The position numbers and the translations under genes are program-made. From assembly GCF_003703475.1 (NCBI RefSeq), contig NZ_RDQM01000014.1, positions 1 through 59,114 of the forward strand: 59,114 bases of DNA, written 5' to 3'. Below the pieces are notes generated by a model. The model saw nothing but the letters and a program-made list of their open reading frames with translations, did no database searches and was not told the origin of the DNA. The stretch comes from Allofranklinella schreckenbergeri. Its GTDB lineage: Bacteria; Pseudomonadota; Gammaproteobacteria; Burkholderiales; Burkholderiaceae_C. The first letter of the stretch is position 1. Each line of letters begins with the position of its first letter. Positions 39,375 through 41,292 of the stretch are shown piece after piece.

Positions 39375-40061
39375 GTGACAGAGCGCAGACGATTCTTCCC
39401 AAGCAAGCGACGAAATATCGAACCAGGCCAGCGCGTGGCCGTAGAAGTACAACTGCGCCCCGAGGGCCCCGCCCCGAAACTGGAGGCCGCGCCAGCGCCA
39501 GAAGCGCCGCCGCCGCCACCGCCGCCACCGCCACCGCCACCGCCACCGCCGCCCGCCTGTGCAGTCATTGGGGCAGGCTGGATCGGCCTGTCGGTAGACG
39601 AGTGGGGGATGCAGTCGCGAACATTGCCAGATGGCCGCATCGAGATCTCCGACTGGAACACCCGCACCGTTTGGTCTGGTGCCCCTACTCAGACCAACAG
39701 CGACGGCAACCCCCTGCCCGTGCCCGCCGAAGGCTTTCACTGCCATGAAGCCCGCGTGCATTTCGATGCGTTGCGCCCAGTGCGTGGCGGCATACACGCC
39801 GTGCTGCAAGGCACTGCACTATCGGCCGCACATTGGACGTTTCAGTGGGACGGCGCAGAGATCGGAGCGCCGCAAATGCCGCAGAGCATCCACTACGGCG
39901 GCACTATTGCAGTGAGCACCTGGGGCAACGTGTTGCAGGTGGTCGGCAACGAGGTCACATACGACGGCACGGAGATGACGTTCAGCCTCACGGCCTGGGC
40001 CCATTGCGGCGGCGAACAAGTCGCCGAGCTCAAGCTCGATATCTATTTCCCCGGGCATTGA
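39375..40061 (+). CDS. Tail protein with polyproline hinge
   Basis: 228 aa. Basic N-terminal arm (MTERRRFFPSKRRNIEPGQR) that probably binds the previous tail protein, then 16 consecutive prolines (residues 45-60), then a beta-rich domain (RTLPDGRIEISDWNTRTVWS ... AELKLDIYFPGH). It looks like a tip protein on a stiff proline spacer. The proline codons form a simple repeat at 39507-39554. Confidence 0.7.
   Translation: MTERRRFFPSKRRNIEPGQRVAVEVQLRPEGPAPKLEAAPAPEAPPPPPPPPPPPPPPPPACAVIGAGWIGLSVDEWGMQSRTLPDGRIEISDWNTRTVWSGAPTQTNSDGNPLPVPAEGFHCHEARVHFDALRPVRGGIHAVLQGTALSAAHWTFQWDGAEIGAPQMPQSIHYGGTIAVSTWGNVLQVVGNEVTYDGTEMTFSLTAWAHCGGEQVAELKLDIYFPGH
39507..39554 (+). repeat. CCN trinucleotide tract coding for 16 prolines
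   Basis: Sixteen proline codons, mostly alternating CCG and CCA, one of which is CCC. Slippage in steps of three would change spacer length without breaking the frame. Confidence 0.85.
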
Positions 40062-40206
40062 CAGCGGCCGGGCAAAAAAAGACGGGCGACTGCACTGGTG
40101 TTGCGGGCACCAGCGCAGCCCCCGATCCGCTGAAGGAGCCAGCAAATCAGGCAAGGCCCGCCACACTCGCGAGTGCGGGGCGAGCCTACCACGGGCGTTA
40201 CAGCCT

Positions 40207-40223
40207 GTGCAAAGGATTTGCAC
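40207..40223 (+). promoter_or_regulatory. Hairpin over the Com ribosome-binding site
   Basis: GTGCAAA (40207-40213), loop GGA, TTTGCAC (40217-40223), ending 3 nt before the com ATG. The RBS AAAGGA (40211-40216) spans the stem and loop, so folding would limit translation. Confidence 0.5.
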
Positions 40224-40226
40224 ACC

Positions 40227-40448
40227 ATGCAAAAGGATCACACGCACCAATACACCAATCAGGACATCCGCTGCGGCCAATGCGGCAAAAAGCTCGGCCA
40301 AGGCAGCTATATCTGCCTGGCGATCAAATGCCAGCGATGCAAGACGGTCAATCACTTGAGGGCCCAGAGCCCCCAACCCGCGCCACCCGATGGCCTTCTT
40401 CAAAAGGTAGAGGATGGATGCAAACAAAGCAGCAACAACCAGTTTTGA
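40227..40448 (+). CDS. com: Com-like zinc-finger translational regulator
   Basis: 73 aa. IRCGQCGKKLGQGSYICLAI and then KCQRCK give two CxxC pairs as in Mu Com, which binds mRNA and permits translation of the following DNA-modification gene mom. Here the downstream gene is a cytosine methylase whose start lies inside com (40414). The arrangement com plus modification gene at the right end is as in Mu. Confidence 0.82.
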   Translation: MQKDHTHQYTNQDIRCGQCGKKLGQGSYICLAIKCQRCKTVNHLRAQSPQPAPPDGLLQKVEDGCKQSSNNQF

Positions 40449-41292
40449 CGGGCCAAGCGTCGGCAGCCTCTTTGCAGGCATCGGCGGATTTGATCTCGGA
40501 TTTGAGCAGGCGGGCTTTACCACCGCCTGGCAAGTCGAAATCGAGCCGCGATTACGCGACGTGCTCGCCTTGCGATTCCCGCATGCACGGCAATTTGCCG
40601 ACGTGCGAGATGTCGGCGCCCACAACCTGCGAGCAGTGGATGTGCTCGTTGGCGGATTCCCCTGCCAGGACGTCAGCAGCATGGGCCGCCGGGCAGGCCT
40701 GGCAGGACAACGCACAGGCCTGTTCTGGCAGGTCTGCCGCATCGCAGACGAAATTCGGCCCCAGTGGCTGGTGCTTGAAAACGTCGTGGGCTTGCTCAAC
40801 AGCAACGCTGGGAGAGACTTTGGCACGGTCGTCCAGGCCCTCGCCAAACGCGGGTATGTGGGATGCTGGCGGGTGCTTGATTCTCAGTATTTCGGAGTCG
40901 CCCAGGGTCGCCGCAGGGTTTTCCTGGTCGCAGGTCTTGGACGACAGCCCCCCATTGGGCTGTTGGCTGACGCCGCGCCAGTGGCAGCAATACCTCGCAC
41001 GCTTGCAGCGCAGCAAGAGTCACGGCCTGAGGATGGATGGGCTGCCTATTGTCTGCTTGCCAAGCTCTCGCCAAGCCTGCTGGCCATCGGTGCAGAAAAT
41101 CTCGTCTGTCACCGAGGCGGACGGGGTGCGATGCTTGAGCGGGCCCGAGTCTCTGAAACTGCAAGGATTCCCACCGGACTGGATGCGACCGATCACGCAG
41201 AAGCTCGGGCGGCCGGAAACGCAGTGTGCGTACCCGTGGCCAGATGGATCGCCCAGCACCTGATGGCTGAAATCAGTCAAGGCCAGCAGTAA
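40414..41292 (+). CDS. C5-cytosine DNA methyltransferase
   Basis: 292 aa. Motif I SLFAGIGGFDLG (residues 18-29), IV GGFPCQDVS with catalytic C84, VI VLENVV with E122, VIII QGRRRVF (about 162-168) and X AAGNAVCVPVARW (about 265-277). It methylates phage (and host) DNA, probably against restriction. ATG 40414 has AAAAGG 6 nt upstream; overlaps com by 35 bp. The region between VIII and X lacks the usual RLTPxExxxLQGFP block in this frame, whereas that block is present in the +1 frame (see the overlapping ORF). Confidence 0.88.
   Translation: MDANKAATTSFDGPSVGSLFAGIGGFDLGFEQAGFTTAWQVEIEPRLRDVLALRFPHARQFADVRDVGAHNLRAVDVLVGGFPCQDVSSMGRRAGLAGQRTGLFWQVCRIADEIRPQWLVLENVVGLLNSNAGRDFGTVVQALAKRGYVGCWRVLDSQYFGVAQGRRRVFLVAGLGRQPPIGLLADAAPVAAIPRTLAAQQESRPEDGWAAYCLLAKLSPSLLAIGAENLVCHRGGRGAMLERARVSETARIPTGLDATDHAEARAAGNAVCVPVARWIAQHLMAEISQGQQ
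40418..41263 (+). CDS. Overlapping +1-frame ORF inside the methyltransferase gene
   Basis: 281 aa from ATG 40418, four bases after the methylase ATG (ATGGATG). It stays open for 846 bp. Its parts read SLADSPARTSAAWAAGQAWQ (over motif IV), CLILSISESP and SWSQVLDDSPPLGCWLTPRQ, which resemble uncharacterised phage proteins, then GVRCLSGPESLKLQGFPPDW, a clear methylase motif IX block. Either it is a second product from tandem starts, or the methylase gene has two compensating frameshifts. It could be a shadow frame only, but the LQGFP block argues against chance. Confidence 0.45.
   Translation: MQTKQQQPVLTGQASAASLQASADLISDLSRRALPPPGKSKSSRDYATCSPCDSRMHGNLPTCEMSAPTTCEQWMCSLADSPARTSAAWAAGQAWQDNAQACSGRSAASQTKFGPSGWCLKTSWACSTATLGETLARSSRPSPNAGMWDAGGCLILSISESPRVAAGFSWSQVLDDSPPLGCWLTPRQWQQYLARLQRSKSHGLRMDGLPIVCLPSSRQACWPSVQKISSVTEADGVRCLSGPESLKLQGFPPDWMRPITQKLGRPETQCAYPWPDGSPST

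Follow-up and report, generated by a model that had tools for sequence, protein, structure and literature searches.

A prophage region of Allofranklinella schreckenbergeri carries a gene for a C5-cytosine DNA methyltransferase over which a second long reading frame lies open at +1, raising the question whether the same bases encode one protein or two. The window, i.e., the complete stretch of 59,114 nucleotides that was analyzed (contig NZ_RDQM01000014.1), had been described before from its letters and open reading frames. This preliminary description left two options, being either that both frames are expressed as separate products, or that a pair of compensating frameshifts has scrambled about 60 residues of the target-recognition part of the methylase.

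This paper describes the conservation of both frames among homologues from bacterial genomes and phages. As far as sequences go, the comparisons establish conserved dual coding, conserved arrangements for a dual start, a complementary distribution of methylase motifs over the two frames, and homology of the nested frame to a wider family of nested phage frames. The locus, located in the com-mom position of a prophage, probably encodes a nested, two-subunit C5-methylase of the same kind as M.EcoHK31I and yields two proteins from one mRNA segment. In the following, the frame 1 protein is called alpha and the +1 protein is called beta.

Homologue collection

Homologues were collected by pattern scans of GTDB and IMG/VR that yielded 583, 364, 137, and 576 relatives; from each scan the best 80 loci were retained, with many repeats between scans. 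The resulting 327 sequences included the window, pieces of its own genome, and two phage regions, and 325 of them contained alpha. A profile of the beta core split these 325 cleanly, with 146 scoring at least 117, 77 scoring at most 35, and 102 giving no match, and every match (223/223) lay in the +1 frame of alpha. The 146 full-core loci (repeats included), all of which matched the beta profile as far as its end at motif IX, were reduced to 40 nonredundant genes at under 90% alpha identity. On a quick tree these group as a single clade (SH-aLRT 96), next to 16 relatives that do not have the complete beta core.

At the cut-offs used, and with the window's own genome counted, the arrangement was rare, being found in 1 of 369 genomes of the class, 4 of 398 genomes of the phylum (three of them partial and with stops), and 6 of 399 genomes of the order. 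Loci L332 to L334 are full length, and L333 derives from a single-contig genome (G985). Broken copies were encountered as well: in L335 only the end of the beta core was found, and L336 has an internal deletion. With the queries used, the collections of named phages, plasmids, and E. coli contained no beta relative with motif IX; one search returned 14 Streptococcus and Brochothrix records, none of which reaches motif IX, and nothing was found in plasmids searched with the L089 beta or in E. coli genomes searched with L101 DNA.

Two further sets of relatives were compared. The control set consisted of 39 nonredundant near relatives that scored above 150 with the alpha profile and lacked the complete beta core, picked as single-chain relatives that were expected to show nothing; 9 of them came from GTDB genomes and the remaining 30 from IMG/VR or elsewhere. 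The second set comprised 65 more distant relatives (65 of the 66 loci L019-L084), which are GTDB genome records, including at least one of archaeal origin.

The methylase locus and its prophage setting

The features of the locus, all on the + strand, are as follows.

40173..40448, +, com homologue (Mu-like Com zinc ribbon; PF10122 E 2.5e-11, phrog_6417 E 2.5e-16)
40402..40413, +, two Shine-Dalgarno-like stretches (AAAAGG 6 nt before ATG 40414; GAGG 4 nt before ATG 40418)
40414..40420, +, tandem start ATGGATG (first ATG for alpha, second for beta in +1)
40414..41292, +, alpha (292 aa), predicted large subunit of a C5-cytosine methyltransferase, containing motifs I-VIII and X
40418..41263, +, beta (281 aa), read in the nested +1 frame and bearing motif IX (homologue stop depletion, frame-specific constraint)
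40819..40998, +, segment A, dual-coding, where motifs VII-VIII of alpha overlap the conserved core of beta
41029..41085, +, stretch variable in both frames, candidate target-recognition region (constraint dip)
41090..41235, +, segment B, dual-coding, where motif IX of beta (41123-41182) overlaps residues 226-274 of alpha
41209..41253, +, motif X of alpha (AAGNAVCVPVARWIA), frame 1 (from alignments)

The assignment of frame 1 to the C5-methylases, made in the preliminary description, was borne out by matches of alpha residues 16-174 to Pfam DNA_methylase (PF00145, E 3e-53), of residues 5-291 to phrog_116 (E 1e-68), and to NCBIfam TIGR00675 (E 3e-50), as well as by the presence of motifs I-VIII and X. 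The AdoMet, PCQ, and ENV motifs place alpha among proteins with a C5-cytosine DNA methyltransferase catalytic domain. A single-chain enzyme holds motifs I-X together, and a search of the alpha frame for motif IX found it in 0 of the 146 loci. The AlphaFold2 model of alpha (mean pLDDT 70.5, pTM 0.72) is good for the catalytic domain and the motif X helix, with pLDDT 61-96 over residues 11-180 and 71-92 over residues 271-292, and falls under 50 for residues 186-197 and 205-267; the best Foldseek matches were M.HhaI and M.HaeIII.

Genes for the phage head and tail, among them those of terminase, portal, and tape measure, lie further upstream of com and the methylase, and a cobyrinate synthase-like gene, presumably of the host, lies downstream. 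The methylase is the last gene of the IMG/VR copy of the present prophage (L085); the locus is therefore taken as the right end of the prophage, which is the place of mom in phage Mu. A com gene is found upstream in 33 of the 40 family members, and overlaps the alpha start in 29 of those 33. In the window, com, alpha, and beta jointly occupy all three forward frames over 40418-40448 (31 bases).

Elsewhere in the window's own genome, a stretch of 71 bp (L003, contig C27, 173231-173301) is 83% identical to 41106-41172, which is the motif IX region. Since no second alpha was found in this genome, L003 is apparently a relic of another copy.

Coding capacity of both frames

The +1 frame is open for 846 bp from ATG 40418 to 41263 (281 codons, with the stop included in the 846), as reported before, and GVRCLSGPESLKLQGFPPDW, which had been singled out as the motif block that alpha lacks between motifs VIII and X, lies in this frame at exactly the claimed position, 41123-41182. 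The openness of the frame thus stands, and its extent needed correction, the stop-free run being longer than first described (39749-41263, 504 codons). Its upstream part, 39749-40417, passes through com and is GC-rich.

For one gene, an open +1 frame is weak evidence by itself, because the gene is GC-rich and the run extends past it. The frame could then be a by-product of GC-rich codon use, in line with the run passing beyond the gene and with synonymous-codon shuffles of the window gene, by which its open +1 frame is mildly unusual (P about 0.01). Across homologues, however, such shuffles, which preserve both codon use and protein, gave 63.1 expected +1 stops in 18 genes (1000 shuffles, minimum 44), where 4 were observed; the +2 frame of the same genes served as control and had 177 stops vs 153 expected. 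All 40 genes together had 2 stops in +1 over codons 61-240, vs about 147 expected, and in successive 60-codon blocks, counted in alpha codons from the start of the alpha match, the numbers were 18 vs 34, 1 vs 67, 1 vs 48, and 0 vs 32, with no depletion in +2. Moreover, homologous nested ORFs persist at GC 0.39-0.50, and the 65 more distant relatives were not depleted (412 stops vs 389), 0/65 being open over codons 66-176. Judged by these counts, the +1 frame is open across homologues far beyond chance, and chance or GC bias, rejected by the shuffles with their +2 control and by the distant relatives, retains next to no probability as its cause. A stop-filled +1 frame in homologues, proposed earlier as evidence against a second product, characterizes neither the family nor the near relatives; it does characterize the 65 distant relatives, where the lack of depletion marks the limit of the phenomenon.

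Conservation was evaluated in 125 pairs under 70% identity. Over segment A, +1 conservation reached z 18-25 vs 10-13 for the +2 control, with a synonymous codon identity of 0.67-0.81 vs 0.32-0.40. Taking both dual-coding segments (40819-40998 and about 41090-41235), constraint beyond the demands of alpha amounted to z 18-31 (+2 control 10-16), and synonymous codon identity to 0.67-0.86 vs 0.32-0.40. Upstream of about 40730, +1 conservation was close to the +2 control, and the first 100 or so residues of beta were conserved no better than the neutral +2 frame. The diversity at the three codon positions of alpha in the 40 genes changed along the gene, from 0.23/0.20/0.50 in the mainly-alpha upstream part, to 0.28/0.14/0.33 in segment A, 0.44/0.38/0.54 in the constraint dip at 41029-41085, and 0.37/0.25/0.24 over motif IX (41090-41215). 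This comparison of codon positions in both frames, suggested previously as a check, revealed that the freest position shifts from alpha position 3 to position 1 over motif IX, so that the free position there is the wobble position of beta.

In the reverse test, beta codons were shuffled in 35 genes. The alpha frame had 0 stops through 41248 and was conserved above expectation, vs about 8-16 alpha-frame stops expected per 20-codon window (35 genes together) if only +1 mattered, bearing in mind that the alphas had been collected as open frames. By these measures both frames are coding at once, which counts against frame switching as well as against scrambling.

Scrambling by two frameshift mutations or sequencing errors within the target-recognition part of frame 1 would account for the absence of motif IX from frame 1 and its presence in +1. 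Nevertheless, the arrangement is common to independent genomes, including single-contig G985, and frame 1 is conserved through the affected region, aligning at 41000-41200 in homologues of 54-83% identity, so that this option of the preliminary description had to be abandoned as extremely improbable. The view that frame 1 alone is conserved and that the motif in +1 is a coincidence was overturned likewise, as family members carry motif IX in +1. The other option, two products from one gene, is supported at the sequence level by both frames being open and conserved, and by a conserved start of its own for the +1 frame.

Arrangements for starting the second frame

The two starts four bases apart were found as described, in ATGGATG at 40414-40420. 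ATGNATG occurs in 20 of the 40 nonredundant homologues (N being G in 7, T in 7, A in 3, and C in 3), the background at the other long ORFs of these sequences being 9 of 788 starts. From the tandem ATG, beta measures 268-292 aa in 19 of these 20 genes; in L277 the tandem start is present, yet a +1 stop follows after 26 codons.

Among the 20 non-tandem genes, 13 carry AGGAGG within the motif I (GIGGF) codons, which was seen in 0/20 tandem genes, and 12 carry a +1 ATG just downstream; both elements coincide in 11, as exemplified by GGCATAGGAGGTTTTGATGTC. The upstream com overlaps alpha in the frame of beta itself in 11 of the 13 AGGAGG genes, and in 10 of these 11 the com stop is the TAG of ATAGGAGG, so that beta can start directly after com ends. 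In the 14 tandem genes with an overlapping com, com is in the third frame, which leaves the frame of beta free. Other or unclear starts, or an internal stop, were noted for L087 (two ATGs in reverse order), L091 (two early stops, no clear start), L096, L170, L228, L244 (internal +1 stop), L277, L282, L287, and L332. The tandem label changed at least three times on the tree, and the mutual exclusion of tandem and internal Shine-Dalgarno starts was not significant, with only 3 independent pairs. Folding of the RNA of the start region was no better than that of shuffles (z 0.19). In E. coli, AUGUG sites can start both frames, including that of tamA with two Shine-Dalgarno motifs, and the term AUGNAUG does not occur in the accessible part of the article concerned (Kohl et al., PMC9841429).

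Beta and the location of motif IX

The early part of the +1 frame had been likened to uncharacterised phage proteins, and this likeness could be made specific: beta matches phrog_16143 ('DNA methyltransferase'), although weakly (E 1.5e-5), and is homologous to nested ORFs of other phage methylases in a profile-profile comparison (E 2e-29). Beta gave no match at E 0.01 in Pfam or at E 1 in NCBIfam, a DUF2065 match (E 0.07) being under its cut-off, and its profile found no match among PDB sequences. The AlphaFold2 model of beta alone is poor (pLDDT 51, pTM 0.21), with only about residues 181-200 and 241-270 reaching 72-85, and yielded one meaningless Foldseek match (E 8.1); such a model might be expected if beta folds on alpha, and proves nothing. 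A helix of beta, WLTPRQWQQYLARLQR, is encoded at 40964-41011, near the end of segment A.

A fixed motif IX pattern was found in the +1 frame of 138 of the 146 full-core loci (repeats included) and in the alpha frame of 0. From the R of this motif to the GN of alpha motif X the distance is 86 nt in 37 of the 38 homologues measured (the pattern missed 2 of the 40), and the sole outlier, L006, could be traced to an earlier AGNA match. In single-chain relatives, motifs IX and X are 31 codons apart in 11 of 21 cases and 21-43 in the rest. Because the spacing in the window's family is close to the single-chain one, motif IX probably underwent an ancient frame exchange before this family arose. Profile-profile comparison of motif IX in beta with that of single-chain enzymes gave 46% over 26 columns at E 0.0021, with a probability of only 13%.

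The order of the motifs, with I-VIII in frame 1, IX in +1, and X in frame 1 again at fixed spacing, would also be obtained if one chain were made through two programmed frameshifts, a +1 shift after motif VIII and a return before motif X. However, both frames are constrained simultaneously over 40819-40998 and 41090-41235, and the +1 frame stays open over a long distance upstream, beginning close to its own start codon, which makes programmed frameshifting very unlikely. An independently started beta remains the preferred reading of the locus.

Nested +1 frames in other phage methylases

The near relatives, chosen as single-chain controls, turned out to be depleted of +1 stops as well (162 vs 237.5 over 180 codons in all 39). 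In 36 of these genes the depletion was confined to codons 66-180 (4 vs 114 stops, as compared to 140 vs 103 in codons 0-66); this count leaves out L016, L017, and L018, with 8, 3, and 1 stops in codons 66-180, respectively, L016 having stops throughout. The +2 frame of the 39 genes was not clearly depleted. Constraint on +1 in 35 genes was almost absent up to codon 120 (z -3 to +4) and became strong over codons 120-200 (z 20-41), and for LRRAERRGKTLPPPL in the 35 genes the values at the codon positions were 0.66/0.46/0.33, with the +1 frame dominant. The first +1 ATG or GTG past the last +1 stop was preceded by a Shine-Dalgarno match of at least 4 nt in 27 of 34 genes, vs a background of 12.6% at 341 other out-of-frame starts; L310 was left out of both the 35-gene and the 34-gene test. 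When scanned, the nested ORFs matched phrog_16143 in 31/31 cases, NCBIfam dcm in 1/31, and Pfam in 0/31.

A search of named phages returned 127 records, 14 of which were inspected (L337-L350). In 13 of the 14 the match lies in the +1 frame of an annotated methylase gene, including phage P1 dmt, Vibrio CP-T1, and Pseudomonas TC7, and the 14th, Mycobacterium phage Thibault, has a split methylase gene. In Thibault, gp104 (L342, 1750-1995) represents the conserved end of the nested ORF as a free-standing gene of 82 aa, adjoining an HNH endonuclease gene. In Streptococcus phage MM1, the nested +1 ORF is annotated as orf14, 'C5 methyltransferase beta subunit' (L165, 2983-3408), and the methylase has motif IX in its own alpha frame. 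An interpretation of orf14 as a spurious annotation was dropped, as the control set places it in the wider nested-ORF family.

Among the 15 intact genes of named phages (the 13 inspected genes, MM1, and Brochothrix BtpYZU01), 11 have motif IX in the alpha frame, and in the other 4 it was not found by pattern. For the 39 near relatives it is in alpha in 18, in +1 in 4, and not found in 17. L013, L014, L323, and L324, which are outside the window's clade, have motif IX in +1; this distribution suggests that the motif changed frame more than once. With nothing left out, +1 stops over codons 66-180 numbered 10 vs 56.4 in the 18 genes with motif IX in alpha (15 of the 18 having none), and 6 vs 73.1 in the other 21.

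As the nested ORF is kept open where alpha has motif IX, those alphas may be complete alone, and beta could accordingly be made as a separate small protein, e.g., a regulator or anti-restriction factor, and be no methylase subunit at all; the 82-aa version annotated as a gene of its own in phage Thibault fits this as well. On the other hand, no motif IX was found in alpha in any of the 146 loci of the window's family, and the presence of motif IX in beta near its ancestral spacing would then be hard to explain. A separate function of beta is thus considered rather unlikely for the window, and beta as a subunit of the methylase is the reading pursued here. Within this branch of phage C5-methylases, a nested gene in +1 thus seems to be ancient and common, the window's family being one lineage that has motif IX in it as well.

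Discussion

In the arrangement proposed, initiation at ATG 40414 would yield alpha, containing the catalytic large domain (AdoMet site, PCQ and ENV motifs, motif X helix), and initiation 4 nt downstream, at ATG 40418, would yield beta, the conserved C-terminal half of which (about residues 135-265) would hold the helix beside the variable, probably target-recognising region, as well as motif IX. Alpha and beta probably join as one active enzyme, to which we infer that alpha contributes catalysis and that beta contributes, besides motif IX, a part of the recognition side. This enzyme would methylate phage DNA and thereby shield it from host restriction, a protective role that is proposed because of the com-mom position at the prophage end. 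From these data we infer translation of both frames, assembly and activity of their products, control by Com, and protection of phage DNA.

A broader generalization would be that the phage C5-methylases of this branch, P1 Dmt included, generally consist of two subunits, the second being hidden in +1 with its own ribosome-binding site, that motif IX has switched frame, perhaps repeatedly, with the hidden subunit holding it in the window's lineage, and that the com stop is part of the hidden Shine-Dalgarno sequence where com overlaps the hidden frame; we consider the arguments for and against this generalization evenly balanced.

The kind of organization is already known from M.EcoHK31I. To our knowledge, the near-complete overlap with an ATGNATG start, the alternative starts linked to com, the evolutionary evidence from 40 genes, and the extension to further methylases of phages are new, and the titles and abstract openings searched, among them few subscription papers, contained no report of a phage C5-methylase with a nested second subunit. 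As far as we know, evolutionary tests have seldom backed long genes nested on the same strand in phages and bacteria, and the nested gene of the window passes several of these. The mechanism suggested here would derive both subunits of one enzyme from a single set of bases, the second frame being started in at least two different ways, and the locus would exemplify the passage of a motif from one reading frame to another with both frames remaining coding. If the nested ORF is a subunit elsewhere too, the annotation of many phage methylase genes, including P1 dmt, covers one of two products, and recoding of alpha codons for cloning would destroy beta and lead to a false negative.

Comparison with known systems

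The methylases of the phrog_16143 type (P1 dmt, MM1 orf13/orf14, and Vibrio CP-T1, among others) have a homologous +1 ORF that covers motifs IV-VIII and just beyond; it differs from beta in that it usually starts near codons 47-118 and stops before motif IX. The locus resembles com-mom of phage Mu in having a Com homologue directly upstream that overlaps the start of the second gene, which here is a putative C5-methylase pair, and not Mom.

The EcoHK31I small chain, of about 176 aa, is encoded within the gene of the large chain in a different frame. Beta, the predicted small chain of the window, likewise lies within the large gene in another frame. In PMC3404938, M.EcoHK31I (YGGCCR) is described as a two-polypeptide enzyme, of which the large chain has motifs I-VIII and X as well as the recognition domain and the small chain has only motif IX, and M.AquI as two polypeptides that share the ten motifs, with motifs IX and X and the distal variable region in the small chain. 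Compared with these descriptions, the window shares with M.AquI the split over two polypeptides and differs from it in having motif X in alpha and in the nesting of the genes. The motif layout of M.EcoHK31I is the same as that of alpha (I-VIII and X) and beta (IX, for which the profile match is short), whereas its recognition domain is in the large chain and the region between motifs VIII and X of the window is variable in both frames. Moreover, M.EcoHK31I belongs to a restriction system, whereas the present gene follows com in a prophage, with beta starting 4 nt after alpha and spanning nearly the whole gene.
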